Virus record (IMG/VR): IMGVR_UViG_3300032087_005847
Span: 1-25,287 of that record
Direction: 5' to 3' (one strand)
Source of the DNA: a virus
DNA: 25,287 nt
Under the pieces are notes generated by a model that was given only the letters and a program-made list of their open reading frames with translations, ran no database searches and had not been told where the DNA came from. This document shows, piece by piece, positions 8,278-25,287 of this stretch (position 1 is the stretch's first letter; each line of letters starts with the position of its first letter). The translations under genes and the position numbers were made by a program.

Positions 8278-8282
8278 CTACA

Positions 8283-8310: not shown

Positions 8311-8814
8311 ATGAAAGAATCAGAATTAAGATCAATGATCCGTAAACAAATAAAAGAATCATTAAAAGAAAATGATTCGTTTTTAAAGCAAGTGGGCGGA
8401 TCGGTCCGGGCTAAGTTAGGAAGCCGTCGTCAGATGTTAGATAGAATTTTAGCAACTATAGACACTAACAGATTAACAAGATTGCCTAGAGTACAAAAAG
8501 TCGATTTACTCGTTGCATTAGTACAAAAATTCGGCATATCAGAACAAGATTTTGCATCAATTAAATCTAGAGTACAGCGTAATTTAGGTGTAAGCGAATC
8601 AATTGATGAAGCTGATGGTACGAAGTTGAGCGGTTCATTAGCATCACGCGGTGAAAAACTTGAAAAGACACAAGCATTTAAAATGTTAATGAAGGCAGTA
8701 GAAGCAAAGCCAACGGCACAACAAGTAGATTTTGCAATTGACTTCCTTAGCAAGTTGCCTTTAGATGACGCCGGCAAGCGTCGTTTAAAGATGAAAATTC
8801 GTCAATTTCTTTAA
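8311..8814 (+). CDS. Small helical hypothetical protein, possible head-internal protein
   Basis: This 167-residue basic, strongly helical protein is preceded by the AT-rich gap motif. It starts MKESELRSMIRKQIKESLKE, an amphipathic N-terminal helix containing IKE|S and LKE|N. These resemble the (L/I)-x-E sites cut by T4 prohead protease gp21 and the short capsid-targeting leaders of T4 internal proteins. The C-terminal part (FAIDFLSKLPLDDAGKRRLK and MKIRQFL) looks like a small helical domain. I do not recognise a named family. A role inside the head or in scaffold assembly is inferred from the leader and neighbourhood only. Confidence 0.55.
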   Translation: MKESELRSMIRKQIKESLKENDSFLKQVGGSVRAKLGSRRQMLDRILATIDTNRLTRLPRVQKVDLLVALVQKFGISEQDFASIKSRVQRNLGVSESIDEADGTKLSGSLASRGEKLEKTQAFKMLMKAVEAKPTAQQVDFAIDFLSKLPLDDAGKRRLKMKIRQFL

Positions 8815-8816
8815 TC

Positions 8817-9431: not shown

Positions 9432-10065
9432 AGATCAGATATTAAGAGCCGAAATAAAACGCTTAGTAAATGAAGTACTTTCGGAAGCAGAAGCGGGCGA
9501 AGACTTAGAAAAAGAATTGTCTAAAGTAGGAACTGAATTAGCCGCGGCAATTAAAAAAGCTGATATCGACGTTTCCGAATTAGAAGAAAAATACCAGCGG
9601 GCGATTGATGAGGGAGCTGATAAGAATCAGCTTAATGAAATTGTTATAGAAACAATTACGGCAATCTTATTAAAGATAATGACGCTTAATGCTATTATAG
9701 GATTGATTACAAAAGGCGTAAAGTTTCTTTCAAAAAAATTAAATTGGCAAAAAGGTGAAAATTTTGCTGAAAAAGTTTTGCATTATGTCCATGAAGTTGA
9801 AGCTGGATTTAAAAAGCCATTGGATGCAGTATTAAAGTTGTTTATTAAAGATGCACAAACACGAAAATCAGTTGTCAATATAATGTATGCTATCTTAGTT
9901 GCATCATTGGCTGTAGGATATGGCACGGAAGCAATTCAATCTCTCAAAGATGCGGAATGGTTTAGTGGCGGCGTAAAAGGTCTTAAGGTATTAGCTAAGT
10001 CTGATGAAGTAATGGCTAATCTTAAAAATCCTATAATTGTTAAAGCAATTAAAGCATTTGCATAA
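9421..10065 (+). CDS. Helical membrane-type protein, possible head-internal protein
   Basis: I use the ATG at 9421, which overlaps the upstream stop by 11 nt; a TTG start at 9409 is possible but less likely. The 214-residue product opens with an amphipathic helix (KDQILRAEIKRLVNEVLSEA) holding an LSE|A site like those cut by gp21-type proteases. An acidic coiled-coil-like stretch (27-65) comes next, then two hydrophobic segments at about 75-99 (ETITAILLKIMTLNAIIGLI) and 150-168 (VVNIMYAILVASLAVGYG). The leader resembles that of the protein at 8311. It could be an ejected or membrane-active internal protein. No family is recognised. Confidence 0.5.
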   Translation: MNNKDQILRAEIKRLVNEVLSEAEAGEDLEKELSKVGTELAAAIKKADIDVSELEEKYQRAIDEGADKNQLNEIVIETITAILLKIMTLNAIIGLITKGVKFLSKKLNWQKGENFAEKVLHYVHEVEAGFKKPLDAVLKLFIKDAQTRKSVVNIMYAILVASLAVGYGTEAIQSLKDAEWFSGGVKGLKVLAKSDEVMANLKNPIIVKAIKAFA

Positions 10066-10082
10066 TTTGTCGTTCTGACAAA
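10066..10082 (+). repeat. Short inverted repeat after stop codon
   Basis: TTTGTC, loop GTTCT, GACAAA: a perfect 6-bp stem immediately after the TAA at 10063-10065 and 22 nt before the terminase start. It is AT-rich, weak, and followed by AAATTT rather than a T run, so it is not a convincing rho-independent terminator. It might fold in mRNA or bind a protein. Confidence 0.35.
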
Positions 10083-10104
10083 AATTTCTTATATTTAGGT
10101 TATA

Positions 10105-11682
10105 ATGGCGCAACGTAGTATTAAAGAAGTAATTCGCGAAGAATACAAGAAATGTGCACAAGACCCCGTGCACTTCATGCGTAAGTACTGCATTATTCAA
10201 CATCCTACAAAAGGTAAGATGTATTTTAACCTATATCCATTCCAGGCAACGGCATTAACTACATTACAGCATAATCGATATAATGTAATTCTTAAGTCAC
10301 GTCAATTAGGCATTTCAACATTGTCAGCCGGCTTCGTATTATGGAACATGTTATTCAAAGATGATTATAACGTTCTTGTAATTGCCACGACACAAGAAGT
10401 TGCTAAAAACTTAGTAACTAAAATCAGAGTAATGCACGAAAATTTACCGTCATGGCTTAAAGGTAAAACGTTAGAAGACAACAAACTTTCCTTGAGATTT
10501 AAAAATGGCTCACAAGTAAAAGCGGTATCAAGCGCCGGCACTGCTGGTCGTTCTGAAGCATTATCATTGCTCGTTATTGATGAGGCTGCATTTATTAAAA
10601 ATATTGAAGAAATTTGGGCATCCGCTCAACAAACATTGGCAACTGGTGGAGGGTGTGTTGCTCTTTCAACGCCTAATGGTACTGGTAACTGGTTTCATAA
10701 AACATGGGTAGATGCCGAGGCCGGAGGGCAGTTCATGCCTACAGAACTACACTGGACCGTACACCCAGAACGAGACCAGAAGTGGCGAGATGAACAGACT
10801 GGTCTATTAGGTGAAAAGATGGCCGCACAAGAATGTGATTGTGACTTTATTACATCTGGTCATACTGTTATTGACGGTCCTATTTTGCAATGGTACGAAC
10901 AGACTTATGTTAAAGACCCAATGGAAAAGAGAGGGTTTGATTCTAACTACTGGATATGGGAGTATCCAGACTATGGAAAAGATTATGTAGTAGTAGCGGA
11001 CGTAGCACGAGGCGATGGCGGCGACTACTCTGCATTCCATGTTATTGAAATAGAAAACATGGTTCAAGTTGCCGAATACAAAGGAAAGATAGGCACTACA
11101 GAATACGGTAATATGTTAGTATCTGTTGCAACAGAATGGAACAATGCATTACTAGTCATTGAAAATGCTAACATTGGTTGGGCTGCAATTCAAGTTGTGA
11201 TAGACAAGAACTATGATAACTTGTATTATTCGTACCGGCAAGATGCATATGTAGATGAAGATATACATTTATCTAAAGGTTATGACTTAAAAAACAAAGC
11301 GCAAAAAGTACCAGGATTTTCTACAACATCTAAGACCAGGCCATTGGTCATATCAAAGTTAGAGACGTATTTTAGAGAAAAAACGCCTATTGTACATAGC
11401 AAACGTTTAATTGATGAATTGTTTGTGTTTATATGGAATGGTAGCAAGGCAGAAGCACAATCGGGCTATAATGACGATTTAGTAATGGCGTTTGGAATTG
11501 CATTATGGGTACGCGATACTGCACTGCGTTTACGGCAGCAGGGCCTGGAGCTATCTAAAAAATCGTTAGGTTATTTTGGAAAAGTACAACACGATACAGG
11601 TGTATATACAAATAAAAATTCTAACGGCTCATGGGAATGGCGTAATGGCTATGGAAAAGATGATCTAACCTGGCTAATATGA
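10105..11682 (+). CDS. terL: Terminase large subunit, T4 gp17-like
   Basis: This 525-residue protein has the length and motif order of a packaging motor. The N-terminal ATPase contains an atypical Walker A, KSRQLGIST (64-72; the 'SRQLGKTT' class of T4 gp17), Walker B plus catalytic Glu, LLVIDEAAF (155-163), and the coupling motif STPNGTG (188-194). The C-terminal RNase H-like nuclease shows ADVARGDGGDYSAF (298-311, Asp299), VIENANIGW (351-359, Glu353) and GYNDDLVMAF (454-463, Asp457/458), together the usual acidic triad. It cuts concatemeric DNA and pumps it through the portal, the next gene. The start has only a weak AGG (10097-10099). Confidence 0.95.
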   Translation: MAQRSIKEVIREEYKKCAQDPVHFMRKYCIIQHPTKGKMYFNLYPFQATALTTLQHNRYNVILKSRQLGISTLSAGFVLWNMLFKDDYNVLVIATTQEVAKNLVTKIRVMHENLPSWLKGKTLEDNKLSLRFKNGSQVKAVSSAGTAGRSEALSLLVIDEAAFIKNIEEIWASAQQTLATGGGCVALSTPNGTGNWFHKTWVDAEAGGQFMPTELHWTVHPERDQKWRDEQTGLLGEKMAAQECDCDFITSGHTVIDGPILQWYEQTYVKDPMEKRGFDSNYWIWEYPDYGKDYVVVADVARGDGGDYSAFHVIEIENMVQVAEYKGKIGTTEYGNMLVSVATEWNNALLVIENANIGWAAIQVVIDKNYDNLYYSYRQDAYVDEDIHLSKGYDLKNKAQKVPGFSTTSKTRPLVISKLETYFREKTPIVHSKRLIDELFVFIWNGSKAEAQSGYNDDLVMAFGIALWVRDTALRLRQQGLELSKKSLGYFGKVQHDTGVYTNKNSNGSWEWRNGYGKDDLTWLI

Positions 11683-11690
11683 TATTTATA
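11683..11690. promoter_or_regulatory. TATTTATA motif before the portal gene
   Basis: The motif begins directly after the terminase TGA. The 24-nt gap reads TATTTATAACAAAAGAAACT then GATT. It shares ATATTTATAACAAA with the gap at 5934-5947. AAAGAA also serves as a modest ribosome site for the ATG at 11707. Confidence 0.5.
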
Positions 11691-11706
11691 ACAAAAGAAA
11701 CTGATT

Positions 11707-13593
11707 ATGGCAGATACATCATTAAGATCAAGACTATCTAGACTATTTTCGACGAATGTAGTTGTACGTCGTATAGCAAAAAATAGACTCAAGGTAGTTG
11801 ATACGAATCGTTTGCAATCAATGGGGTCGCTTTCGAATAACAGATATATAGATCGTTTTTCCGGAATGCATAAAGCCCAATCTGGATTTGCAACATATAA
11901 TCAAAATTATACATTCTTTACATCTAAATTAGAGTTATATTCTGATTATGAAGCAATGGACATGGATCCGATTATTGCATCGGCATTAGATGTTTATGCA
12001 GATGAATGTACAGTTAAAGACGCCGATGGCGACACTTTAACTATCAATTCGCAGAACGATGAAATCAAAAAAGTTTTGCATAATCTTTTTTATGATGTAC
12101 TTAATGTCGATTATAATCTTTGGCCATGGATTCGTAATGCATGTAAGTACGGCGACTTTTTCTTGCATTTAGACATTGAAGATGAAATTGGTATTGTAAA
12201 TGTGACGCCGTTAAGTGGTTATGAAGTTCGACGTGAAGAAGGGTTTGACCCAGCAAATCCATATGCATATAAATTTGTATGGGAAGGTACTCATACAGCA
12301 TATGCATCGGCTCGTTCGAATCAAGATCAGAGAGAATTTCAAAACTTTGAAATAGCACATTTTAGATTATTATCAGATACAAACTTCTTACCGTATGGTA
12401 AGTCTATGATTGAGCCGGCACGTAAAGTATTCAAGCAACTCATGTTGATGGAAGATGCTATGTTAATTCATAGAATAATGCGCGCCCCGGAACGTAGAAT
12501 ATTTAAAGTAGATGTAGGAAATATTCCGCCGGCCGAAGTCGATGCTCATATGAAGAACATTATTGGCAATATGAAAAAAATTCCATATGTGGATGAACGA
12601 ACAGGTGAATACAACCTTAAGTTCAACATGGAAAACATGATGGAAGATTACTTCCTGCCAGTACGAGGGGGCGAATCTGGAACGGCTGTAGAATCTTTAC
12701 CAGGTTTATCTAATGATGGCCAAATCGAGGATATTGATTACCTACGCAATAAAATGCACGCCGCGCTTAAAATACCAAAAGCATTCTTAGGATATGATGA
12801 AGGAGTTGAAGGAAAGGCGACGTTGGCTGCAGAGGATGTTAGATTTGCTAGAACAATTGAACGTCTTCAAAAGATATTCGTTTCTGAGTTAACAAAAATT
12901 GCAATTGTACATTTATTTTCGCAAGGATTTAAAGATGAGGATTTAGTTGACTTTTCTATATCATTAACTAATCCTTCGTTAATTTATGAAAAGCAAAAAG
13001 TAGAAACATTAAATGAAAAAATAAGCTTAGCTTCATCATTAAAAGAATCTACGTTATTCTCCGAACGTTGGATTTATGAAAACATATTCGGATTGAGTCA
13101 AGATGAATGGCGTGCAGAACAAGAACAGGTAATACAAGACCTTAAGTCTGACTTTAGAAAAGAACAAATTAAATCTGAAGGCAATGATCCTAAAAAGACA
13201 AATATGAGTTTTGGTACTCCGCATGATATTGCCTCAATGCATGTTTCTAATAGAAATGGAGAATTATTGCCTGGACAAGAACAAAAACATGTTGCTGGCC
13301 CCGGTAGACCAAAAGAACCTGGTACATGGGGGTCACATGATTCGCCTCATGGCAGAGATCCAATTGGCATTAAGTCATTAGATACTGTATTTAATACAGA
13401 TAAGTCACCACTGCAACATAATTACCGAGGAAATTCTCCGTTAAGTATAGAAAGTAAAGATATGGCCGCATTGATAGGCTCATTGAAATCTGCATTTAAG
13501 ACATCTACGGTTCTACAAGAATCATTAAATAATAATGATAATTTATCGGATTCTGGTACGATGCTAGATGAAAACCAATTGATGGAAGAATGA
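11707..13593 (+). CDS. 20: Portal vertex protein, T4 gp20-like
   Basis: This 628-residue protein has characteristic gp20 family segments: YEAMDMDPIIASALDVYADE (near 80-100), LIHRIMRAPERRIFKVDVGN, MMEDYFLPVRGGESGT, and the clip/channel region FLGYDEGVEGKATLAAEDVR. It forms the dodecameric ring at the special head vertex, through which the terminase packages DNA and to which the neck attaches. Length is close to, and slightly longer than, T4 gp20 because of a low-complexity C-terminal extension after residue ~480 (GQEQKHVAGPGRPKEPGTWG and onward) that ends with acidic Asn/Ser-rich sequence. It is directly downstream of terL. Confidence 0.95.
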   Translation: MADTSLRSRLSRLFSTNVVVRRIAKNRLKVVDTNRLQSMGSLSNNRYIDRFSGMHKAQSGFATYNQNYTFFTSKLELYSDYEAMDMDPIIASALDVYADECTVKDADGDTLTINSQNDEIKKVLHNLFYDVLNVDYNLWPWIRNACKYGDFFLHLDIEDEIGIVNVTPLSGYEVRREEGFDPANPYAYKFVWEGTHTAYASARSNQDQREFQNFEIAHFRLLSDTNFLPYGKSMIEPARKVFKQLMLMEDAMLIHRIMRAPERRIFKVDVGNIPPAEVDAHMKNIIGNMKKIPYVDERTGEYNLKFNMENMMEDYFLPVRGGESGTAVESLPGLSNDGQIEDIDYLRNKMHAALKIPKAFLGYDEGVEGKATLAAEDVRFARTIERLQKIFVSELTKIAIVHLFSQGFKDEDLVDFSISLTNPSLIYEKQKVETLNEKISLASSLKESTLFSERWIYENIFGLSQDEWRAEQEQVIQDLKSDFRKEQIKSEGNDPKKTNMSFGTPHDIASMHVSNRNGELLPGQEQKHVAGPGRPKEPGTWGSHDSPHGRDPIGIKSLDTVFNTDKSPLQHNYRGNSPLSIESKDMAALIGSLKSAFKTSTVLQESLNNNDNLSDSGTMLDENQLMEE

Positions 13594-13619
13594 CGTGATG
13601 GTATTTAGTATTAACGCCA

Positions 13620-13627
13620 TATTTATA
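13620..13627. promoter_or_regulatory. TATTTATA motif before the head/lysis/two-component cluster
   Basis: The 66-nt gap between portal and the next gene contains CCATATTTATAAAAAAG, the fourth exact copy of the 8-mer in a gap. It is the last clear gap element before about 7 kb of nearly gapless genes, so it is the best candidate site controlling them. Confidence 0.45.
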
Positions 13628-13633
13628 AAAAAG

Positions 13634-13643
13634 TATGATCATA
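13634..13643. repeat. Perfect 10-bp palindrome TATGATCATA
   Basis: A dyad lies 6 nt after the TATTTATA motif and 16 nt before the start at 13660. It could be an operator half-site pair, but a 10-bp AT-rich palindrome may occur by chance. Confidence 0.3.
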
Positions 13644-13659
13644 ACAGGGCGATTACTTC

Positions 13660-14502
13660 ATGAAACGAATGAAACATTCCAAGTATAAGAATACAGGACT
13701 AATCTTTGAACTTCTCGTCCGCCAGGTTGCATCTGATACGATGCACAATAAAGACTCAAAAGCGTTACATATTTTAAAACGTCATTTTTCTAAAAGCGCA
13801 GAACTTTCGAAAGAATTAAAACTGTACAGGTCCTTACACGAAGAAAAATTTACTAGTGAGCGAAAGGCGGAACTTTTTTTAGATGCAGTTCTTAAATCTA
13901 GACGACAGTTAAATGAATCTCAATTACGTAGAGAAAAATATAACTTAGTTAAAGAAATTAACAATATATTAGATACGATAGAGTTTTTTAATGCTCGTAT
14001 TCCGTCGTATAAGCAACATGCTGCAATATATAAATTGTTTGAGTTTACCGAATCTGACGATCCTCGGCATTACGTTGATAATCGTATGTCATTAGTAGAA
14101 CATATACAGACACAAACAAAATCAGAAGAAAAAATATCGCTTGTATCAGAAGATAAAGATATAAGAATCTTAGCATCTAAAATGGTCGTGGACAAGTTTA
14201 ATGAAAAATATGCTACATTAAATACACCACAAAAAAGAATGTTGAGAGAATACATTAATAATGTTACTAATTCTACAAAGCTTAAAGCATATGTTTTAGA
14301 AGAAACAAACAAAATTGATTCCGAAATAAAAACATTAAGCCGCCAAGTTGTTAGCAAAGTAACACGTATTAAATTAAATGAAGTTTCATCATTGTTAGAT
14401 CAGTTACGCCAAAAGCATGTTATTCATGATAAGGACATCGTAACAATGTTACGTTATTATGAATTAGTCGAAGAGTTGAAAAAAACAAAAGGGACTAACT
14501 AA
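13660..14502 (+). CDS. Conserved-looking helical head-cluster protein downstream of portal
   Basis: This 280-residue, highly helical and charged protein starts MKRMKHSKYKNTGLIFELLV. I have the impression that such proteins sit next to the portal gene in T4-like marine phages, but I cannot name the family. Long amphipathic helices (35-130 and 160-270) suggest coiled coils, as in core or scaffold components. It contains LNE|S at 84-87, a possible prohead-protease site. No membrane segment or enzyme motif is seen. The stop overlaps the next gene (TAATG). Confidence 0.65.
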   Translation: MKRMKHSKYKNTGLIFELLVRQVASDTMHNKDSKALHILKRHFSKSAELSKELKLYRSLHEEKFTSERKAELFLDAVLKSRRQLNESQLRREKYNLVKEINNILDTIEFFNARIPSYKQHAAIYKLFEFTESDDPRHYVDNRMSLVEHIQTQTKSEEKISLVSEDKDIRILASKMVVDKFNEKYATLNTPQKRMLREYINNVTNSTKLKAYVLEETNKIDSEIKTLSRQVVSKVTRIKLNEVSSLLDQLRQKHVIHDKDIVTMLRYYELVEELKKTKGTN

Positions 14503-14807
14503 TGGCACGTGGGCAAGTTTATTTACCACCATCAGGGTCGCAAAATAATCAATTTGAAACCCAAGGCTTTCCGGGAGAATATCATTCACCTTTAGCATAT
14601 ACAGCCGGACAAATTGATCTTACCGGGTCAAATTACGGATATGGTGCAGTTATGGTAGTAGCTGACGGCAGCGCCACTTTACATTATGCCGGCGGAACTA
14701 GTTCATTGGCTAGCGATTTAACTGCTAAAGATATTTACAACTTATCCGTAGCAAAAATAACCGGCGGCACTGGATCTAAAATTTATTTATTTAAGAGACA
14801 ACAATAA
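14502..14807 (+). CDS. Small beta-rich virion protein
   Basis: This 101-residue protein starts MARGQVYLPPSGSQNNQFET and is rich in Gly, Ser, Tyr and beta-strand patterns (YGYGAVMVVADGSATLHYAG, then IYNLSVAKITGGTGSKIYLF). It lacks Cys and membrane segments. Both ends overlap neighbours by one base (TAATG), so it is tightly coupled to the head genes. Size and composition would suit a head decoration or stabilising protein, but this is an inference from context. Confidence 0.6.
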   Translation: MARGQVYLPPSGSQNNQFETQGFPGEYHSPLAYTAGQIDLTGSNYGYGAVMVVADGSATLHYAGGTSSLASDLTAKDIYNLSVAKITGGTGSKIYLFKRQQ

Positions 14808-15565
14808 TGAAGTTAATTGATCAATTAGATTTATATTTTGAAGCATTAGATAAAATTTCTGATAAAGAAGCGGCACAAGATTTCGATTCTTTAGATGATA
14901 AAGATATTGATAATGATGGCGATGTGGATGATACCGATTCATACCTTCATAACAAGTTAGGCAATGTTGCTAAAAACGTTAACGAAGCAGATGATATTGA
15001 ACAGCTTCATAGCGATTTTATGCGTATGTTATCCGATAAGTTATCAGATAATGAAGCTCGAGCGTTAATAACTCAATTGAGACGTCAATATGATGACGAA
15101 GAAATTCGTGCAGTATTAGGTCCATTAGGATTATTACGCGATGAAATGATGGAAATGTCAACGACAGCGGCCGTGCCTGGCGATATTAAAACGCCATATG
15201 CATTTGGTAAGAAAGAGGATGAAAAGGATAATGCTGAAGTTGTCGGATATAAAAAAGTACAAGAAAGTGCTTATAAGCGGATGATGCGAGATGTATATGG
15301 AATTGATTCAATTGATGAGGCAGTAACATATTCGGACTTTAAAAAAGATCCAAAATCGACACCACAGCAAAAGGTAAATAGAGGTATTGCAGAAGTAAAC
15401 CGCATGTTAGCTGAAATGGAAAAGATTGTTAACAACAACTTACGGTTAAAACAAGAAATGGGCGTTGATTCATCTCACTTTTGGAAAACGACCGGCAACC
15501 GCTTTGCAAAGATTAATGAGCGCATGACGCGTATATCAAATAGATTAAGAGAATTATCAAAATGA
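14807..15565 (+). CDS. Head-cluster protein with EF-hand/dockerin-like loop (probable prohead core protein)
   Basis: This acidic protein has 252 residues. Residues 33-44 (DIDNDGDVDDTD) fit a calcium-binding EF-hand or dockerin loop: Asp at positions 1, 3, 5, 7 and 12, Gly at 6, a hydrophobic residue at 8. Residues 117-134 (MSTTAAVPGDIKTPYAFG) resemble a phrase I associate with T4-like head-cluster proteins. The C-terminal half is coiled-coil-like (IAEVNRMLAEMEKIVNNNLR). Its position between portal and prohead protease is where T4 has its small prohead core genes 67 and 68, so a core/scaffold role is likely. The stop overlaps the next start (ATGA). Confidence 0.6.
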   Translation: MKLIDQLDLYFEALDKISDKEAAQDFDSLDDKDIDNDGDVDDTDSYLHNKLGNVAKNVNEADDIEQLHSDFMRMLSDKLSDNEARALITQLRRQYDDEEIRAVLGPLGLLRDEMMEMSTTAAVPGDIKTPYAFGKKEDEKDNAEVVGYKKVQESAYKRMMRDVYGIDSIDEAVTYSDFKKDPKSTPQQKVNRGIAEVNRMLAEMEKIVNNNLRLKQEMGVDSSHFWKTTGNRFAKINERMTRISNRLRELSK

Positions 15566-16356
15566 ATAAAGTAATGAGATATTACCAGACGTGGTCAGAT
15601 TATTCACGTCGTCCTGAAGTTCAATCTTTAATTGAATCAAAAGGCATGGAATATGTGCGTCAGCAGTATATGCGTGAAGTAAATTACATGCAATGGAATT
15701 ATCCAACTCAAATAAATGAGTCAACCTCGCCTGGCGGAGCTGTTAATAACGCAATTAATGCAGATGGCAGCTCAACTCAATTTATTACGGGATATAGTAA
15801 AGAAACATCGACGTTTACATTAGCTAATGGGTTAGCTGATGGATTTGAAGATGCAATCCATGGTACATTTTTCGACGTGTATGCATATAATAACACCGTA
15901 GATTATTCATTAGATCATGCTGATAGTGTTAAACAAATTAGATGTTTTATAACAACAGGGTCTGCAGAAACATTTTCAAATACCGGCGGCGCAGCATGCG
16001 TCATTACCGCATCTGTTGATGGCGTAAGTGGTATTGTTACCGGTTCAATATTAGAATCGTTTAGAGATGCAATAAATAATCAAGGTGCATCCGCAGTCGT
16101 AGCTGGCTTTACAAATACATTTGCGCCATCAGATATAATATCAGGTTCGGTAACAGATAATGTATTAACTATTACAAGAGAATATAACGCCGGCGTGCCA
16201 GATATATCATTAACGGCCGGTTCTAATACTATTAATTTATCCGATACGGCATCAGTTGCAACACCAGTTAATGGCCTCGATACATACTATTATGCACAAG
16301 GCATGCAAGTATTTGATGGAGCGGTTGCGCCTTATTCAACATTACCTAGAAAATAA
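15562..16356 (+). CDS. Head-cluster structural protein with possible cleaved leader
   Basis: This 264-residue protein has two parts. Residues 1-53 are helical and aromatic (MNKVMRYYQTWSDYSRRPEV and following) and end in QINE|S, the same I-N-E-S sequence found near the N-terminus of the prohead protease encoded next. After it comes a Gly/Ser/Thr-rich beta region (YSKETSTFTLANGLADGFED, FTNTFAPSDIISGSVTDNVL) like small virion proteins. I infer a structural head protein matured by cleavage after Glu53. No family name is recognised. Confidence 0.55.
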   Translation: MNKVMRYYQTWSDYSRRPEVQSLIESKGMEYVRQQYMREVNYMQWNYPTQINESTSPGGAVNNAINADGSSTQFITGYSKETSTFTLANGLADGFEDAIHGTFFDVYAYNNTVDYSLDHADSVKQIRCFITTGSAETFSNTGGAACVITASVDGVSGIVTGSILESFRDAINNQGASAVVAGFTNTFAPSDIISGSVTDNVLTITREYNAGVPDISLTAGSNTINLSDTASVATPVNGLDTYYYAQGMQVFDGAVAPYSTLPRK

Positions 16357-16364
16357 GGAATCTT

Positions 16365-16970
16365 ATGTCTAAAACATTATTAGTAGATTATACATTATTC
16401 GAAGTATCACCTCAGCAAATAAATGAGTCAATGGCTCAAAACAACGGACGCTTAATAGTATCCGGCGTATTGCAGCGGGCAGAGGCTAAGAATCAAAATG
16501 GACGTATTTATCCTAGAGAAACATTGGTACGTGAAGCAAAAAAATATTCTGACTCATTTATTGCCGAAAAACGTGCATTGGGAGAATTAGATCATCCAGA
16601 TTCTTCCGTTGTTAACCTTAACAATGTATCTCATAATGTTTTAGAAATGGCCTGGACGGGCAATGACCTCGTAGGTAAAGTTGAAGTGTTATCAACGCCT
16701 TCTGGTAATATTTTAAAAGAATTATTTAAGTCAGGTATTCGTTTGGGTATTTCATCTAGAGGTATGGGGTCTGTTAAAGAAGTAATGAAAGAAGGTGAAA
16801 ATACTTTAGAGGTACAACCTGACTTTGAATTAATTGCTTTTGATTTTGTATCGAATCCATCAACTCATGGCGCATTTTTATCGCCGGTTAATGAATCAGT
16901 AAATAAAGTTACGAACAATGTATATGGAACCGTTGATCGTATAATTACTGATATCATTAGAGAGTTTTGA
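16365..16970 (+). CDS. 21: Prohead core protease, T4 gp21-like (peptidase S80 family)
   Basis: This 201-residue protein has a herpesvirus-assemblin-like serine protease pattern. GRLIVSGVLQRAEAKNQNGR leads to IYP (28-50), ALGELDHPDS at 71-80 carries the catalytic His77, LGISSRGMGS at 127-136 carries the nucleophile Ser (130 or 131), and FDFVSNPS at 159-166 closes the fold. The enzyme cleaves scaffold and head proteins after Glu in (L/I)-x-E sequences during prohead maturation. It contains INE|S at 19-22 and VNE|S at 175-178, plausible self-cleavage sites trimming both ends. The ribosome site is AAGGAA, and the stop overlaps the next gene (TGATG). Confidence 0.93.
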   Translation: MSKTLLVDYTLFEVSPQQINESMAQNNGRLIVSGVLQRAEAKNQNGRIYPRETLVREAKKYSDSFIAEKRALGELDHPDSSVVNLNNVSHNVLEMAWTGNDLVGKVEVLSTPSGNILKELFKSGIRLGISSRGMGSVKEVMKEGENTLEVQPDFELIAFDFVSNPSTHGAFLSPVNESVNKVTNNVYGTVDRIITDIIREF

Positions 16971-17236
16971 TGAAATTACCAATATCGTTTGATCAATTTA
17001 CAAAAAACCCTGTTTCGGCGATTGCATTCGTTGCTTTAGGCGTTATAGGCTATTTATATGTTGATATGATTAAAGTACATGAAGCACAGTTAACTAACTT
17101 AGACCGAACATGTACGCAGCGCATTAATGACCATAAAGAGCGAATTGAGTCATTGGAAGAAACAGTAGTCCGTTATGAGGATAAGTTAGAACAAATAAAC
17201 GATAAGTTACTCGAATGTTTAGGACAAGACAATTAA
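16970..17236 (+). CDS. Membrane-anchored coiled-coil protein, candidate inner-membrane spanin
   Basis: I use the ATG at 16970 (TGATG overlap with the protease stop), giving 88 residues. A single hydrophobic segment at about 15-34 (VSAIAFVALGVIGYLYVDMI) is followed by a charged coiled coil (RINDHKERIESLEETVVRYE to the end). One N-terminal anchor plus a periplasmic coiled coil is the layout of Rz-type inner spanins. The next gene overlaps it in another frame and encodes a lipoprotein, as in Rz/Rz1 pairs. Alternatively it is a generic small membrane protein. Confidence 0.6.
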   Translation: MKLPISFDQFTKNPVSAIAFVALGVIGYLYVDMIKVHEAQLTNLDRTCTQRINDHKERIESLEETVVRYEDKLEQINDKLLECLGQDN

Positions 17237-17769
17237 TAGTAGCCGGTGTACTTACATTATTAGGCTGTAATGAACAACCCAAATTACCTACGGGTAATAC
17301 ACAACTAGCGGCTGTCGATTCAATAGTAATTGAAGAACAATGGGACGGGTTATCTAGCATAGATGCAACGTTAGCAATTGCAGATGCGGCATTAGAACAA
17401 AAAGCTCAAGAAGAGCAGCGTACACGTAATGTATTATCAAATTTACGTGTTACTATCGTCAATGAAGAAGCTATTATTGACTCGATGAATATAGAAGTCG
17501 GACAGCGCGATAGTTTAATAGCCAAAATTTTATACGAAAGTAATTATCGCCAACATCAACTTGACAGTGTATCGGTTGAGTTAGCACATAGAGTACATAA
17601 ATGTATGTCGGACTGTACACCGACAATATCCCAATTAAAAACTAAAAATAAACAATTGACAAATTACATAAAAGAGTTGCAATCTCAGATCGAACTAATG
17701 GATTCATTATTAATGGATAACAGAAAAACGAGAAAAATCTATGAACCCACTACCGGAAGATCTTTTTGA
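17215..17769 (+). CDS. Lipoprotein with coiled coil, candidate outer-membrane spanin
   Basis: This 184-residue protein starts inside the previous gene (22-nt overlap, different frame). MFRTRQLIVAGVLTLLGC is a textbook lipoprotein signal peptide: basic N-terminus, hydrophobic core, lipobox LLGC with the modified Cys at 18. The rest is long and helical, with two coiled-coil stretches (about 57-120 and 140-172) and Cys129/Cys133 that could form disulphides. With the preceding anchored coiled-coil protein it fits a two-component spanin that joins inner and outer membranes at lysis. It is much longer than typical Rz1 proteins and not proline-rich, so the assignment rests on architecture and position. 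Confidence 0.6.
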   Translation: MFRTRQLIVAGVLTLLGCNEQPKLPTGNTQLAAVDSIVIEEQWDGLSSIDATLAIADAALEQKAQEEQRTRNVLSNLRVTIVNEEAIIDSMNIEVGQRDSLIAKILYESNYRQHQLDSVSVELAHRVHKCMSDCTPTISQLKTKNKQLTNYIKELQSQIELMDSLLMDNRKTRKIYEPTTGRSF

Positions 17770-17857
17770 TTTGCCAGAATTTAAAGTACTACCATGGTAT
17801 AAAAGATTTTGGATTAGATTAAAGGTAGCATTTTTTACTTTTAACTCTTATATGTGA
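17741..17857 (+). CDS. 38-residue hypothetical protein between spanin and holin
   Basis: ATG at 17741 lies inside the end of the lipoprotein gene; the TGA at 17855-17857 overlaps the holin start (ATGTGATGA). The peptide MNPLPEDLFDLPEFKVLPWY continues with KRFWIRLKVAFFTFNSYM: an acidic, proline-containing N-terminus and a basic aromatic amphipathic C-terminus that might bind membrane. It fills exactly the space otherwise left empty in a gapless cluster, which supports it being real. No family is recognised. Confidence 0.5.
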   Translation: MNPLPEDLFDLPEFKVLPWYKRFWIRLKVAFFTFNSYM

Positions 17858-18273
17858 TGACTAAATCTACAACTATTATAATAAGCCTTACATCAGCATT
17901 AAGTTTTTTATGTTCATATTTTTTAAATCTAACATTAGATAATGTTGAGCAGTTTTTAGGCATAGCATGCGTCGTTTTATTAGACGGCTTTTTTGGAATT
18001 ATTGCCGGCACAAAAAGAGAAGGATTTAAAACTTTTAAAGCTCTTAGCGTACTTCGAACATTAGCAGTTTGGTGGATTATATTAGGAGCTATTCTAGCAG
18101 TAGAACAAGGTTTTGTAGGAGCCGGATGGTTATCAGAAACTATTATAATTCCATTTTTATTATTTCAAATCATAAGTGCTCTTAAAAATGCCTCGATGGC
18201 TGGTTTTATTAAAATGGATTTGTTAAATCAAATCTTAGATAAAATTGATAATCATAAAGGCATTAGAAAATGA
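17857..18273 (+). CDS. Phage holin-family membrane protein
   Basis: I use the ATG at 17857 (138 residues); a GTG three bases earlier is possible. Hydrophobic segments lie at about 6-24, 33-51, 68-84 and 94-112. The arrangement LLDGFFGIIAGTKREGFKTF, then an Arg-Thr-containing helix, then PFLLFQIISALKNASMAGF resembles the toxin-secretion/phage-lysis holin family (Cp-1/phi29 type), in which a conserved D-x-x-x-G loop follows the second helix. Its role would be timed permeabilisation of the inner membrane. Spanin candidates lie just upstream, supporting a lysis cassette. I see no endolysin in the window. Confidence 0.65.
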   Translation: MTKSTTIIISLTSALSFLCSYFLNLTLDNVEQFLGIACVVLLDGFFGIIAGTKREGFKTFKALSVLRTLAVWWIILGAILAVEQGFVGAGWLSETIIIPFLLFQIISALKNASMAGFIKMDLLNQILDKIDNHKGIRK

Positions 18274-18458
18274 GAAATTGGACTTCAGTTAGAGCAGTAT
18301 ATTTGCTCATGTCAATTGTGTTATTAATTGGCTTTAGTTTAAAAAATTGGTGGATAGTATTATTTGTAATATCAATGCTTCAAGTTGGAGTATGGACTAA
18401 GTTTTGCCCTTCTAAATGGTTATTTGAAAAAATAGGCCTGCAGAAGAGCAAACTTTAA
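18270..18458 (+). CDS. Small two-helix membrane protein, DUF2892-like
   Basis: This 62-residue protein overlaps the holin stop (ATGA). It starts MRNWTSVRAVYLLMSIVLLI, followed by a second hydrophobic stretch (WWIVLFVISMLQVGV) and CPSKWLFEKIGL. The order of an N-terminal 'RNxxxxR' segment, two helices and a C-terminal 'xCPxxxLF' phrase resembles the short YgaP-like/DUF2892 inner-membrane proteins of bacteria. It could be an antiholin, a second holin or a captured host membrane protein. The TAA overlaps the kinase start (TAATG). Confidence 0.5.
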   Translation: MRNWTSVRAVYLLMSIVLLIGFSLKNWWIVLFVISMLQVGVWTKFCPSKWLFEKIGLQKSKL

Positions 18459-19723
18459 TGTCATCAAATTTTTTAAACATATCATTGCGCTCTAAAATTT
18501 GTTTAGTGTGCGCCACGCTAATAATGCTTAGCTTCTTTGTAGTTAAGACATTATTATTGATAGAAGTATTTGACTATTCCGAATTTACGAATTGGTATGA
18601 ATATCTATCGGTCATTTTATTTATGCCGCCATTCTTTACTGTTGTTTTTGAATTTCTTTCAAAAGCCAAAAAAGAAGTAGCTGTTAAAGCTGATTTAGAA
18701 TCATTATTAAATGAATCTTGTTTAGTATCTAAAGCAGATGCCCATGGCAAAATTACTTATGTAAATGATAAATTTGTTGAAGTATCAAAATACACACGAG
18801 AAGAGTTGGTAGGCCAAGATCATAATCTATTAAATTCAGGTGTACAGGATAAACAATTTTGGGTAGATATGTATAAAACTGTTATAAGAGATAAACAAAT
18901 TTGGAATAAGTTTGTTACTAATGTCAATAAGTATGGTGAACATTATATTGTTAATTCTTGGATTATGGCGCATTTTGATGAAAAGGGCAAACTTAAAGGA
19001 TTTACGTCTGTACGTCAAGATGTAACCGAACTAGTTAATACGTTAGAAGCTATTAAACAAAAAGATGTTTATTTAGAGCATGCTGCTAAAATTATTAGGC
19101 ATGACATGCACTCTGGTATTAATACGTATTTACCTCGAGGCATTAAATCGTTAAAGCGTAGGCTAGACGATGAAAAAATTAAGAAGTTACGTATTCAAGC
19201 TCCGCTCCAACTAATTCAGGACGGTTTACATCATGCTCAAAAAGTATACGCTGGCGTATATGAGTTTACTAATCTAGTTAAGCATAATGCCCAAATGTCT
19301 AAACAGCCTTGTGATATAAAATTTATATTAGAAGACTATTTACGTTTAACGGCATATAAGAATCAAGTGATATTAGATGATAATTTGCCTAAAGATTTAC
19401 ATGTTAATGAAGCCTTGTTTTGTACAGCACTAGATAATCTGATACGAAATGGTTTAAAGTATAACGACTCTAAAACAAAATACGTAAAAATATATACAGA
19501 GTTTACCCTAGGTCAACAATATTTATGTATAGAAGATAATGGCCGCGGCATGTCTCAGGAAGATTTTGAGATATTGTCTAAGCCATATCAACGAAAAGAA
19601 GGCCAGAAAGAAGAAGGTACGGGTTTAGGATTAAACATATGTATCGAAATCTTAAAGGAGCATGGTTTTGAGATTGAATCAAAAAAATTAGATGTGGGAA
19701 CTAAGATAACGGTAAAAATATGA
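18458..19723 (+). CDS. Membrane PAS-domain sensor histidine kinase
   Basis: This is a complete 421-residue kinase. Two hydrophobic segments (about 15-37 and 48-66) anchor it with almost no extracytoplasmic loop. A PAS domain follows at 80-195 (KADAHGKITYVNDKFVEVSK, YTREELVGQDHNLLNSG, GFTSVRQDVTE), of the type seen in Aer-like sensors. The H-box is IIRHDMHSGINTYL (212-225, His215). The ATP-binding domain has an N-box, ALDNLIRNGLKYN (324-336), G1, EDNGRGM (359-365), and G2, GTGLGL (387-392). No catalytic residue appears missing, so it should autophosphorylate. It overlaps the small membrane gene upstream and the receiver gene downstream. The signal is unknown; the short loop suggests a cytoplasmic or membrane cue through PAS. 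Confidence 0.9.
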   Translation: MSSNFLNISLRSKICLVCATLIMLSFFVVKTLLLIEVFDYSEFTNWYEYLSVILFMPPFFTVVFEFLSKAKKEVAVKADLESLLNESCLVSKADAHGKITYVNDKFVEVSKYTREELVGQDHNLLNSGVQDKQFWVDMYKTVIRDKQIWNKFVTNVNKYGEHYIVNSWIMAHFDEKGKLKGFTSVRQDVTELVNTLEAIKQKDVYLEHAAKIIRHDMHSGINTYLPRGIKSLKRRLDDEKIKKLRIQAPLQLIQDGLHHAQKVYAGVYEFTNLVKHNAQMSKQPCDIKFILEDYLRLTAYKNQVILDDNLPKDLHVNEALFCTALDNLIRNGLKYNDSKTKYVKIYTEFTLGQQYLCIEDNGRGMSQEDFEILSKPYQRKEGQKEEGTGLGLNICIEILKEHGFEIESKKLDVGTKITVKI

Positions 19724-20157
19724 TTAATACATTAATGTTAATAGACGATGAAAATTTATTTCATCTTGTGTTTGAAGATGCATGTTCATTGTTAGATATG
19801 GCACTATCCATTGAAGCATTAGATAGTTCTGATGAGGCTGATAAAAAATTCAAAGAATGGTTTCCAGATGACCCAAATCATGAAAGGCCCGAATGTGTAT
19901 TCGTTGATTTAAATATCATCGGCTCATCATTTGATGGTATTGAACTTATTCGTAAAATTAACTTTGAGTACGGCAACGGAGTTGTTATTGGTATCATCTC
20001 ATCTTCAACTGACGAATCAGAAATAACAAAAGCAGTTTCAGCAGGCGCTCAGTTTTGGATTGTAAAGTCAGACGAAATCGAACCACGCTTGGAAGAGTTC
20101 CGTAGAGATTACGCAGGTTACAAAGATAGAAAAGCACCATTCAAGGTCTACAAATGA
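19720..20157 (+). CDS. Stand-alone receiver (REC) response regulator
   Basis: This 145-residue protein is essentially only a CheY-like receiver. Visible functional residues are the acidic pair Asp9-Asp10 in MLIDDENLF, phospho-acceptor Asp63 in VFVDLNI, the Ser/Thr switch in GIISSSTD (94-97) and Lys116 in WIVKSD. No DNA-binding or enzymatic output domain follows, only a short basic tail. The start overlaps the kinase stop and the stop overlaps the next gene (both ATGA), so the three should be made together. It is the obvious phosphorylation partner of the kinase and probably acts by protein-protein contact. Codon habit changes within this gene: the 3' half looks more like the downstream block. 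Confidence 0.88.
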   Translation: MINTLMLIDDENLFHLVFEDACSLLDMALSIEALDSSDEADKKFKEWFPDDPNHERPECVFVDLNIIGSSFDGIELIRKINFEYGNGVVIGIISSSTDESEITKAVSAGAQFWIVKSDEIEPRLEEFRRDYAGYKDRKAPFKVYK

Positions 20158-20711
20158 AACTCTCACAAGAAATGAAGTCGGCATTGCTAGACCTTGCCGA
20201 GAAAAGAAATATTTATCTTGAAGGTAATATTATCAAGGTAATAGACCCTGACAACGATGAAGAGTTCGCTGGATACCTAACAAAAGCAAAAGAGCAAGAC
20301 ACCGACAACCGAAAGAAAAGGTTGGAGATAACCAAGCAAGTTCAGCGACAATACAAAGAACTCCTTGAGGAAAAAGAAAAAAATGACACCCTCATGGACG
20401 AACTCAAAGAAGCACTTGGTCTTGCCGAGGAAGCAAAAAAATCGGCACAGAATGACCTAGATGTGCTGCAAAAGCGAACACAGTTTGAACTCATCGGTAA
20501 AATAGTTTCCGTCGCTCTGTGGGTCATTATGGGCGTAGGAGTGACAACTACAGCCCTATACATCTTTGCGATGATTACGAAGTTTGACACAACTCTAATT
20601 GGTAATGCTTGGTCAAACTTATTCGGCATCCTTCTCACTAACTCCTTCAGTATTATAGGAACTATCATGGGTGTGAAGTATGCGAGCAACGACTCTAAAG
20701 AAAAGTCTTGA
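20154..20711 (+). CDS. Coiled-coil protein with two C-terminal membrane helices, third gene of the two-component operon
   Basis: This 185-residue protein has a small globular N-terminus (EMKSALLDLAEKRNIYLEGN, then IIKVID), a long charged coiled coil at about 45-108 (EITKQVQRQYKELLEEKEKN and following) and two hydrophobic segments at 116-141 (GKIVSVALWVIMGVGVTTTA) and 154-174. Both short tails would be cytoplasmic if it is a hairpin. It starts in an ATGA overlap with the receiver gene, which suggests it is the receiver's target or an effector at the membrane. I do not recognise a family. Its last bases overlap the -35 box of the next promoter. Confidence 0.65.
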   Translation: MKLSQEMKSALLDLAEKRNIYLEGNIIKVIDPDNDEEFAGYLTKAKEQDTDNRKKRLEITKQVQRQYKELLEEKEKNDTLMDELKEALGLAEEAKKSAQNDLDVLQKRTQFELIGKIVSVALWVIMGVGVTTTALYIFAMITKFDTTLIGNAWSNLFGILLTNSFSIIGTIMGVKYASNDSKEKS

Positions 20712-20736: not shown

Positions 20737-20759
20737 GTGTGCTGCAAACAGGAGGAAAC

Positions 20760-21215
20760 ATGCTTCTAAAAGTAGCACGAACACACAACATGGCAAAGTT
20801 GCCAAGCAGAGCAAACCCATCTGACGCAGGTGCAGATGTTTTTTATTGCCCAACAAAAGTTGTATCAGTTGAATTGCAACCGGGTGAATCCGCTGTACTT
20901 CCAACAGGATTGAAGGTTGAGGTTCCACATGGATATATGCTAGAGGTGAAGAACCGATCAGGCATGGCAGCAAAGAATAGTTTGGTTGTCGGTGCTTGTG
21001 TTGTTGATTCAGGTTATTCCGGTGAGATTTTTGTAAATCTTCACAACATCGGTAATACACCAAAGACCATCGACATGGGTGATAAGATTGCACAACTGGT
21101 TCTAATTCCAGTTGTTCAGTGGCGTAGTTTTCCGGTAGAGGAAGAAATGCTTTACGTTGATCCACTTACGATTTCAGATCGTGGAGACGGAGCACTTGGT
21201 AGCACAGGTAAGTAA
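20760..21215 (+). CDS. dut: dUTP diphosphatase (trimeric dUTPase)
   Basis: This 151-residue protein has all five dUTPase motifs: DAGADV (22-27), RSGMA (66-70), VVDSGYSGEI (81-90, catalytic Asp83), GDKIAQLVL (107-115) and RGDGALGSTG (141-150). It hydrolyses dUTP to dUMP and PPi, keeping uracil out of phage DNA and supplying dTMP synthesis. I choose the ATG at 20760 because of the ideal AGGAGGA site just upstream; an in-frame GTG at 20739 would lie within the promoter transcript start. In motif 5 the usual stacking Phe is Leu (A-L in place of the common G-F). Confidence 0.95.
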   Translation: MLLKVARTHNMAKLPSRANPSDAGADVFYCPTKVVSVELQPGESAVLPTGLKVEVPHGYMLEVKNRSGMAAKNSLVVGACVVDSGYSGEIFVNLHNIGNTPKTIDMGDKIAQLVLIPVVQWRSFPVEEEMLYVDPLTISDRGDGALGSTGK

Positions 21216-22289: not shown

Positions 22290-22551
22290 TAATAGGCAGC
22301 AAAAGATGGCAGAGTATATTCAATCCCTCGCCGCTATTGAGGATTGTATGCGTCCTTACCGTGAGTCCCGCAAGGAACTACGCAAGAACTTTATTGAGAA
22401 CGCATGGTTGGATAAGGATGAGATTTCCCTTGCAACAAAGGCATTCCGCATGTGGGAGCAGCAGATTGACTTTGATGACTTTGCTAAGATTTTTGAGGCA
22501 GTAGAGACAAGCTTTATTGATAAGGAGGATAAGGATGACTCCGCTCAATAG
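22279..22551 (+). CDS. Small helical hypothetical protein
   Basis: This 90-residue protein overlaps the upstream gene by 11 nt. It is highly helical and charged (QKMAEYIQSLAAIEDCMRPY, ELRKNFIENAWLDKDEISLA) and ends in a very acidic tail (DKEDKDDSAQ). It contains the ribosome site for the GroES-like gene in its last codons. No family is recognised. Confidence 0.6.
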   Translation: METDNRQQKMAEYIQSLAAIEDCMRPYRESRKELRKNFIENAWLDKDEISLATKAFRMWEQQIDFDDFAKIFEAVETSFIDKEDKDDSAQ

Positions 22552-22804
22552 GTCTTTGCTTGTAAATGTCTTGGAGCAAGAAGAGGAAAAGCAATCTGCT
22601 TTTTATTTGCCTGATGATGTTGTAACAGGCACGAAGCCGTTTGAGGTTGTGGAGATTGTTGACGTATCCTCAGAGTCGAAGTTTGTGGATAAGTTAAACC
22701 CAGGTGATAAGATTGTCGTTGAGGGTCACATGCTTCGTAAGATTAATGTGTTTGGTGAGACAGCAACTTTGATTGAGGATAATTACGTTTTAGCAAAAAT
22801 GTAA
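22535..22804 (+). CDS. GroES-like co-chaperonin (functional analogue of T4 gp31)
   Basis: The ATG at 22535 has a strong AGGAGG site (22523-22528) and overlaps the upstream stop by 17 nt; a start at 22517 lacks such a site. The 89-residue product follows the Cpn10 pattern: MTPLNRSLLVNVLEQEEEKQ (compare 'IRPLxDRVLVxxxExExKT'), a short mobile-loop region SAFYLPDDV, NPGDKIVVEG (compare 'vkxGDxVlfxxy') and the closing DNYVLAKM (compare 'EedILAvv'). It would cap the host GroEL chamber to fold phage proteins, as gp31 does for the T4 capsid protein. No GroEL is present. Confidence 0.65.
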   Translation: MTPLNRSLLVNVLEQEEEKQSAFYLPDDVVTGTKPFEVVEIVDVSSESKFVDKLNPGDKIVVEGHMLRKINVFGETATLIEDNYVLAKM

Positions 22805-23652
22805 TGCCTAAAAAGATTGTTGAAATACCTTACGAAAATATCGTTGTTGGGTCGGACGTAAGAGCACTGTTGTATTCTTTCACTAAGGGTATGACGTGCT
22901 TTTACGTCCATCAGGATAAGATAGAACCAATTGTCCAACCAACTAATCAATTTGTCTTAGATAATTTCTGTGCAGATGAGAATATCGCAAATGAAAATAA
23001 ACAAGAAAAGTTCTTAGAGACTGATAAATTAGAGTTCTTTTTGCGTTATATTCTAAATCTGGATGGCAAACTTTATCAGATAAACCGAGACAACTTACGA
23101 TATACAGATGGTAATTTAACTCACAAAACAAATAAGACAGAGTTTGTCTTACAACCTGAGAACATTCATCTTTTCGACAACATAAAACTAAATGGTGCAA
23201 AGCATAAGCAAGCACAAAGATCTTGTGTGGTTGAGGATCATTTCAGAACAAACGCAAAGTCGATGGATAAAACTTGGTTTCGTGGTCACGATCCATTTTT
23301 AAATTTTGTTCATATCGATGGCAAAGTTTTGAAGTCAAGGTTTTATTTGAAAGATGATAAAGGTTTGAATGACTTTGATAATAGTCCGGTGACAATCCGT
23401 TATATGTTAGATGAGTTTCTAACTGGCAACGAAGAGATCACATTAACCAGAGATTATTATAGAAGTTTGAAACCAAAGTTAGAGAATAGAATAATTGTAC
23501 CAGATTATAGGTATAAGACAGAAGAAGAGAATATTACTGTAATAGAAGAGAGTTTAGATCAGTTATGTCAGAAACCAATACTGCCTCAGCGGGAGTCATA
23601 TCTTTACTACCTAACAAAAAGAATTTTGGATTTGATTGGCACGACTGCTTGA
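22804..23652 (+). CDS. Hypothetical 282-residue protein
   Basis: It starts in a TAATG overlap with the GroES-like gene. The sequence is soluble, mixed alpha/beta (KKIVEIPYENIVVGSDVRAL, LEFFLRYILNLDGKLYQINR), with RGHDPFLNFVHIDGKVLKSR near residue 159 as the most distinctive stretch. There are no membrane segments and no enzyme motif I recognise. The last 88 nt overlap the next gene in another frame. By place it belongs to the early/replication block. Confidence 0.6.
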   Translation: MPKKIVEIPYENIVVGSDVRALLYSFTKGMTCFYVHQDKIEPIVQPTNQFVLDNFCADENIANENKQEKFLETDKLEFFLRYILNLDGKLYQINRDNLRYTDGNLTHKTNKTEFVLQPENIHLFDNIKLNGAKHKQAQRSCVVEDHFRTNAKSMDKTWFRGHDPFLNFVHIDGKVLKSRFYLKDDKGLNDFDNSPVTIRYMLDEFLTGNEEITLTRDYYRSLKPKLENRIIVPDYRYKTEEENITVIEESLDQLCQKPILPQRESYLYYLTKRILDLIGTTA

Positions 23653-24455
23653 TGCCAATCAATCATGACTTTACGCTTTTAGATTTAGCAGTTTATGAAT
23701 GCGCTGCTGCTGGCGTTAAATCAATTTGGATCTCAATAAACGATGATTGGGCACCTGTTGTAAAGAAACGCCTTAGAGATTACGTCATGGACCCTGTATG
23801 GCAGAAAAGGACTATGGATCCGATGCCATATCAGAACAAGAGATTGATCCCAATCTTTTTGGTTCCATGTCATGCAAGATATTATAATACAAGAGATAGT
23901 GAGGGCTGGGGATATATTAACGCTGCCCTTTATGCTTCATTATCAGCGAGAAGGATTAGCAACTTTCTAATACCAGATGTGTTTTATGCGACATCACCTT
24001 ACGTTGTTTATGAACCAAGTTATATTTCAAAGTTCAGAAAGATTATTCAAGACAAGAAAAGGTTTATGTTTGAGAGTGATGGCAAGAATTTTCTGAATGA
24101 TAGTCATCATGCTTTTACTTTTCTAAAAGAGGACATAAAGATTGTACGGCAATACATCAACGATAATGCAACAATGCGATATACAAAATCAGAAGAGTAC
24201 GAGCAAACTGGCGAGGGTCCGTTACTAAAACAACTACCAAAAGAAGAAAGGTATAGTGGAAAGAAGTTTGGTCTCAACGACTTATTCAGTCACTTAGGTG
24301 AGAAAGATTATCATAAAGAACAACTCAATTGGAGTTATACGATGAATGGTTGGGAAGATTACAGGGAATATATGCGAGACGGCAAAGAATTTAAGAAACC
24401 AAGTTTATTAGAAAGAAAAAGTATTTATAAAATTTATGGAGACGAAGATGATTGA
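23565..24455 (+). CDS. Nucleotidyltransferase-like hypothetical protein
   Basis: This protein has 296 residues. I keep the start at 23565, although an ATG at 23652 would give a neat TGATG overlap, because the segment SLLPNKKNFGFDWHDCLMPI spanning both starts reads as one conserved opening. The order 'LMPI-x-DFT...D-A-V-x-E-C-A-x-A-G' followed by IWISINDDWAPVVKKRL and DPVW resembles sugar-nucleotide/nucleotidyl transferase N-termini (a Rossmann-like 'P-x-x...AG-I-I-V-N' pattern). I have an impression of similar unnamed proteins in T4-like marine phages. There are no clear catalytic Asp motifs, so the activity is a guess. Confidence 0.5.
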   Translation: MSETNTASAGVISLLPNKKNFGFDWHDCLMPINHDFTLLDLAVYECAAAGVKSIWISINDDWAPVVKKRLRDYVMDPVWQKRTMDPMPYQNKRLIPIFLVPCHARYYNTRDSEGWGYINAALYASLSARRISNFLIPDVFYATSPYVVYEPSYISKFRKIIQDKKRFMFESDGKNFLNDSHHAFTFLKEDIKIVRQYINDNATMRYTKSEEYEQTGEGPLLKQLPKEERYSGKKFGLNDLFSHLGEKDYHKEQLNWSYTMNGWEDYREYMRDGKEFKKPSLLERKSIYKIYGDEDD

Positions 24456-24619: not shown

Positions 24620-24853
24620 ATGAATAACGCAGAAATTTACGAGATGATCCCCTTTCAAGTGTTGGAAAGGGCTGGTTTTCCAATAAGCTATATGCAACTT
24701 AGCTTAGATCAAAAGTTTTTTGTAGATTGTGTCTTTAATAATTCACGCGATATCTTTAGTGAGAATTTGCGTATGCAAGACAAGATCTACCATTTAGAAG
24801 ATAAGGTCGCAGACCTACAACACGAACTCAAAAACCTAGCAGGAGAAAAATGA
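24620..24853 (+). CDS. Small hypothetical protein upstream of DNA polymerase
   Basis: I use the ATG at 24620 (77 residues) because GGAGG at 24606-24610 precedes it; the ATG at 24590 lies inside the previous gene. MNNAEIYEMIPFQVLERAGF precedes a coiled-coil C-terminus (MQDKIYHLEDKVADLQHELK). The TGA overlaps the polymerase start (ATGA). Its coupling to the polymerase suggests a replication accessory, without direct evidence. Confidence 0.6.
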   Translation: MNNAEIYEMIPFQVLERAGFPISYMQLSLDQKFFVDCVFNNSRDIFSENLRMQDKIYHLEDKVADLQHELKNLAGEK

Positions 24854-25287
24854 GTAACCAAATTAAATTCGTGGGCTTGCACGCTCACTCTGTTTTCAGC
24901 GTCTTTGATGGTCTTGGTTATCCACAGGACCACATTGATTATGCTATTGAGAACGGCATGGATGCCTTGGCACTAACAGACCATGGCAACATGAACGGTC
25001 TTTCTTATCAGGTGCTTCACTCAAAGAAGCTACAGAAGGAAGGCAAGAACTTCAAGCCAATCTTTGGTATTGAAGGCTATTTTATTGATTCCGTTGCGAA
25101 ATGGAAGGAAGAAAAAGCAGAAATCGACAAAAATAAAAAGGGTCGAAAGAAGAAAGAAGAGAATAGCGCAGTAGTTATTGAAGACGAGGAAGCAACAAAA
25201 CGGCAGGAAAAGAACATTCTAAACCGTCGCGCTCACTTGGTTTTGCTAGTCCAGAACCAAACTGGTCTAAATAACTTATTTACTTTG
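24850..25287 (+). CDS. dnaE: DNA polymerase III alpha-like (family C), N-terminal PHP domain (partial)
   Basis: ATG at 24850 follows AGGAG (24841-24845) and the frame stays open to the window edge, 146 codons. GLHAHSVFSVFDGLGYP (9-25; metal-ligand His11 and His13), MDALALTDHGNM (37-48; Asp44-His45) and KPIFGIEGYF (69-78; Glu75) are the PHP-domain signature at the front of bacterial DnaE polymerases. A Lys/Glu-rich insertion (about 84-120) lies between Glu75 and AHLVLLVQN, and the frame continues with TGLNNLF, the usual 'GxxNL' stretch. It would be the replicative polymerase. The catalytic palm lies outside the window. Confidence 0.9.
   Translation, partial: MSNQIKFVGLHAHSVFSVFDGLGYPQDHIDYAIENGMDALALTDHGNMNGLSYQVLHSKKLQKEGKNFKPIFGIEGYFIDSVAKWKEEKAEIDKNKKGRKKKEENSAVVIEDEEATKRQEKNILNRRAHLVLLVQNQTGLNNLFTL

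Follow-up and report, generated by a model that had tools for sequence, protein, structure and literature searches.

A virus record carrying T4-type head genes and a DnaE polymerase gene is very probably a hybrid of two phage lineages

Gene content of the window

The window analysed here is the whole of a 25287-base virus record, whose features are collected in Table 1. As the sequence-only reading had noticed, homologues of T4 gp17, gp20 and gp21 lie at 10–17 kb and a PHP-domain DnaE gene runs off the end of the contig; that these genes share one genome was not confirmed, as the identity of the window to its relatives switches from one lineage to another at ~19885–19930. We refer to the lineages matched on the two sides of this switch as the left lineage and the right, or DnaE, lineage.

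Table 1. Features along the window, with the matches that identify them
Feature	Position	Strand	Basis
Terminase large subunit (TerL), T4 gp17-type, left lineage	10105..11682	+	Terminase_6N 7.9e-10; phrog_2 7.3e-47
Portal, T4 gp20-type, left lineage	11707..13593	+	Portal_T4 1.1e-81
Prohead protease, T4 gp21-type, left lineage	16365..16970	+	Peptidase_S77 5e-27
PAS-histidine kinase, left-lineage version	18458..19723	+	HATPase_c 2e-15; PAS_9 1.4e-7; 100% to G022, 54% to G001
Response regulator, hybrid gene (N-terminal left lineage, C-terminal right lineage)	19720..20157	+	Response_reg 4.2e-8; alignment
Junction zone	19885..19929	.	Matches neither sampled parent exactly
Membrane protein of the kinase–regulator cassette, right-lineage version	20154..20711	+	97% to G001, 50% to G022
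dUTPase, right lineage	20739..21215	+	PF00692 1.1e-18; 96% to G001
GroES-like protein, right lineage	22517..22804	+	Cpn10 1.8e-5; 97% to G001
Protein conserved across the DnaE lineage, encoded upstream of DnaE	23565..24455	+	28–98% identity in 10/10 DnaE-lineage records loaded
DnaE N-terminus, 146-aa PHP domain, open at contig end	24850..25287	+	PF02811 1.7e-19; PHROG DNA polymerase 6.8e-24

Amid the left-lineage structural genes, positions 4424–5635 encode an RCC1-like repeat protein (PF25390 1.3e-16, below its cut-off; RCC1 4.2e-7). The large protein at 5956–8277 has an N-terminal nucleotidyltransferase-like stretch (a weak match) and is conserved upstream of the terminase both in the left lineage and in Microcystis phage Mel-JY01. 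The kinase, regulator and membrane-protein genes at 18458–20711 form a cassette found again in many diverse environmental phages, where a holin gene is often close by. A kinase match was present at 78 of the 80 regulator loci examined (the best 80 of 382 relatives), and we found no description of the cassette in a literature listing on phage two-component systems.

Two lineages meet within a response-regulator gene

Between 5007 and 19884 the window is nearly 100% identical to contig 3300031841_003801 (L143/G022), with 7 mismatches in 5007–19879 (14.9 kb) followed by 63 in 19880–20099. The genes of this left block are also 99–100% identical in L142 and L262/L437, and L145 is continuous with the block, at 88%, to about the same end point. 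From ~19930 to its end the window is ~95% identical to L002/L003, which correspond to G002 (69.7 kb) and G001 (141 kb); counted per 200 bases, identity over this right block is 90–100%, with one bin at 87%. Left of ~19930, identity to L002/L003 is 62–80% back to 18959, and none was found further left.

The alignment places the switch within the response-regulator gene, whose first part follows the left parent and whose last part follows the right parent. With the hybrid regulator excluded, genes left of the switch are 99–100% identical to G022 where covered and at most 54% to G001, while those right of it are 91–100% identical to G001 and no more than 50% to G022. The TerL and portal of the window are each 100% identical to those of G022, and are 41–46% and 39–42% identical, in that order, to those of eight DnaE-lineage records. 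A gp23 capsid gene is found in both parent lineages, and no match to it was found in the window. Around the 45-base junction zone, a stretch of 62 bases (19875–19936) is nearest to the L304/L328 alleles, with 4/62 mismatches, and the longest run of identical bases between the two sampled parents in the response-regulator gene is 14. We conclude that the window is very probably a hybrid, in which two T4-type water phages, related to each other but distinct, meet within a response-regulator gene that both possess; this gene is part of a kinase–regulator–membrane-protein cassette common to the two parents.

Occurrence of the join in related loci

The loci compared with the window were the best 80 of 382 relatives for the regulator, the best 80 of 452 for the membrane protein, and, for the kinase, the 79 distinct loci among the best 80 of 120. 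Both sides of the join were found together at none of the 80 regulator loci and at none of 140 newly numbered kinase or membrane-protein loci, sets between which one contig may recur. Two DNA patterns spanning the junction gave no exact matches; these scans, like those for the loci, may omit records near the window. Where the head genes are left-type, the locus runs on to a left-type membrane protein (49%), past which left-type contigs continue to the gp23 capsid gene, and loci with a right-type membrane protein (92–99%) carry a right-type kinase (54–55%).

The head genes and a family B polymerase

DnaE (PF07733) was found in none of 29 left-lineage records among the best 80 portal relatives, most of which are short, so that each single absence is weak. 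The longest of these relatives, G046 (85.5 kb, portal 73%), carries a polymerase of family B homologous to that of the cultured phage Mel-JY01 (3e-228), and a gp23-type capsid gene is present in six of the nine left-type records loaded. The head genes of the window belong to a lineage whose relatives, G046 and Mel-JY01, use a family B polymerase. A family B enzyme elsewhere, coupled with an ORF lacking the catalytic palm, was one finding that the sequence-only reading had set against its proposal; the family B enzyme is present here in the left lineage, and is absent from the DnaE lineage, with a match in none of the 20 records searched.

A T4-type lineage with a family C polymerase

Relatives of the window's DnaE ORF numbered at least 563 among 599 stretches; the best 80 loci were used, and the 20 right-lineage records searched were drawn from them. 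Among the matches listed for the ORF, the closest are complete ~1141-aa DnaE genes in environmental viral contigs, and the N-terminus in the window is 98% identical to the complete 1141-aa DnaE of L002/L003 (L003, 10001–13426). PF07733 was matched in 20/20 right-lineage records, a T4-type portal in 9/20, and a compact family A polymerase domain (PF00476) in 15/20 at E 0.001, 14 of them above the cut-off. DnaE and GroEL occurred together in all ten DnaE-lineage records searched for the pair.

Seven long independent contigs (G001, G003, G005, G007, G011, G012 and G013) carry T4-type TerL, portal, protease, gp23-type capsid and sheath genes together with DnaE. Portal and DnaE lie ~41–49 kb apart in these contigs versus 11 kb in the window, and the interval holds genes for capsid, tail and replication. 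A T4-type lineage whose polymerase is of family C and not of family B does exist on long independent contigs. In a quick portal tree, which gave long-branch warnings on outgroup rows, the two lineages stand apart with 99% SH-aLRT each, and the DnaE lineage forms its own clade. The distant T4-like lineage that the sequence-only reading proposed is thus real as regards its polymerase, while the head genes on which the proposal was based come from a sister lineage.

The window ends before the polymerase palm, which was seen in relatives only. The L003 DnaE has Pfam palm, finger and HHH_6 matches, and the lineage's DnaE has bacterial Pol III alpha subunits as its solved relatives (Thermus 2hpi, 2e-107). 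We aligned the 68 of the best 80 loci whose reading frame exceeds 1050 aa, dropping the other 12. The palm aspartates D465, D467 and D630 are kept in 68/68 of these full-length or near-full-length proteins. The PHP residues H45, E75, H129, C180, D254 and H256 are likewise kept in 68/68, and H11, H13 and D20 in 67/68, the remaining sequence being truncated there. The PHP residues align with those of Thermus 2hpi; from general knowledge of the family, we take these residues and the palm aspartates to be metal-binding. In a search for a host-clamp-binding motif, residues 1005–1009 of the L003 protein (NIELY in 25/68) occupied a conserved position but did not form a standard clamp motif.

A cellular DnaE was rejected, since in the three genome hits L351–L353 DnaE is surrounded by the same phage genes. 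L352 (1–9306) lies in a candidate division WOR-3 MAG chromosome record (CP070664.1, 2.85 Mb) with phage genes at its very start, and its DnaE is 65% identical to that of the right lineage; L351 and L353 are MAG contigs similar to it. The start of L352 is likely a phage stretch inside a bacterial assembly.

The replication set beside DnaE

The sequence-only reading spoke of a swapped replisome, which overstates the difference. Because the helicase, primase, SSB, UvsX-type recombinase and 5′–3′ exonuclease are homologous across A-, B- and C-type phages, it is the polymerase that is swapped, and exchange of the complete replisome was rejected. Neither a DnaN-type clamp (PF02767) nor a delta-prime-type loader (PF13177) was found in any of 19 records, 14 of them of the DnaE lineage, though these records may be fragments; for lack of either, DnaE may borrow the clamp of its host.

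A compact family A polymerase gene of ~395 aa is grouped with downstream SSB, UvsX, exonuclease and helicase genes in the seven long contigs and in G014, and is absent, with these genes, from the window itself. It aligns to the 777-aa enzyme of phage immuto over the polymerase domain only, and most of its motif A and motif C aspartates are kept in the alignment. In the DnaE lineage, DnaE would be the main phage replicase, with proofreading by its PHP domain, and would work with a phage DnaB/gp41-type helicase, a DnaG-type primase and SSB, while the compact family A polymerase, which is divPolA1-like, would be an accessory enzyme. The roles could be reversed, with the compact enzyme copying the genome and DnaE serving as a repair or auxiliary polymerase. 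This we regard as possible but the less probable arrangement: the compact gene adjoins the SSB, UvsX, exonuclease and helicase genes, and the available text of Yutin et al. 2024 (PMC11348598) takes the gene context of divPolA1 to suggest a replication role and considers a function of the regular polymerases in such genomes less obvious than one of divPolA1, but the compact enzyme's alignment to the immuto polymerase is confined to one domain, and DnaE is full length with its catalytic aspartates conserved throughout the alignment.

Origin of the join

Assembly continuity, on which the sequence-only reading made its proposal depend, largely fails for this contig, where identity to L143/G022 collapses at 19884. 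The join is probably an assembly artefact, and otherwise a very recent recombination. In favour of an artefact are the 7 mismatches that separate the left block from L143/G022 and the absence of the join from all 80 and all 140 loci compared. Against it, the sampled parents share no more than 14 identical bases in a row, which is short for a de Bruijn join; this argument is qualified by the true right parent being unsampled and by a junction zone that resembles a third allele. The response-regulator reading frame is intact across the join, as either an artefact or recombination would leave it.

An unlikely alternative is that the hybrid is real, and that recent homologous recombination in the kinase–regulator cassette placed a DnaE module beside a family-B-type T4-like head module. 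The preserved regulator frame is compatible with such an event, the cassette is widespread and conserved in many phages and so offers plausible homology for an exchange, and tailed phages commonly swap polymerases according to the available text of PMC11348598. However, the left half differs from a non-recombinant contig at only 7 positions in 14.9 kb, no examined locus repeats the join, the window lacks the left lineage's gp23 gene, and the junction zone matches neither parent. It is more doubtful still that the join is a snapshot of a T4-like polymerase module being swapped by homology in a widely common flanking gene; if real, it would point to a route for polymerase swaps, the mechanism of which the published account, in its available text, leaves open. 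That the window is an ordinary, unrearranged single genome from a DnaE-bearing T4-like lineage, as the sequence-only reading took it to be, is very improbable: T4-type heads do co-occur with DnaE in related phages, but their portals are the ones only 39–42% identical to that of the window and several times farther from DnaE, and 29/29 left-lineage records are without DnaE. A collapse between two cassette copies in one genome was also rejected, as in G001 only one cassette was found, lying close to DnaE and away from the portal; the 39% identity of the window portal to that of G001 disfavours it further.

Preferring an assembly artefact, we draw a caution, namely that lineages can be spliced at a common gene in viral metagenome contigs, producing a false linkage of head and replicase. 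The combination of a T4-type head with DnaE is real in nature and already described, in the available text of PMC11348598, and it is not demonstrated by the window contig.

Comparison with known systems

A T4-type myovirus has the gp17, gp20 and gp21 homologues present in the window, and its family B polymerase is the type found in left-lineage G046 and in no DnaE-lineage record searched. The bacterial Pol III holoenzyme differs from the DnaE lineage in its DnaN clamp and delta-prime-type loader, of which the possibly fragmentary records above gave no match. The closest cultured portal (50%) is that of Mel-JY01 (PP395634), which has a T4-type head and differs from the DnaE lineage by a family B polymerase and annotated clamp-loader genes. 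Flavobacterium phage immuto (NC_055915) is similar in portal (49.5%), TerL (59%) and its compact family A polymerase, and differs in having a second family A polymerase (777 aa) beside GroES/GroEL in place of DnaE. A PF07733 match was present in four of 11 phage records whose portal is T4-type: it is clear in the huge uncultured phages LR756511 and LR756508, and only short and weak in the jumbo phages XacN1 and Phosso, and all four differ in size (385–595 kb).

The Far-T4 phages, as described in the available text of Roux et al. 2015 (PMC4360716), which names no polymerase family, are similar in that their replication module is separate from a portal, terminase, capsid and tail of T4 type. It is already published that a single T4-type body can have polymerases of family A, B or C interchangeably, next to a conserved helicase–primase–recombinase set. 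Polymerase swapping in tailed phages is described generally in the accessible part of Yutin et al. 2024 (PMC11348598), which also reports 14 immuto-related phages of 155–190 kb with divPolA1 next to replication genes and a regular family A, B or C polymerase added near chaperonin (GroEL/GroES) genes. Our long DnaE-lineage contigs share this layout with the divPolA1 group, a likeness of gene arrangement.
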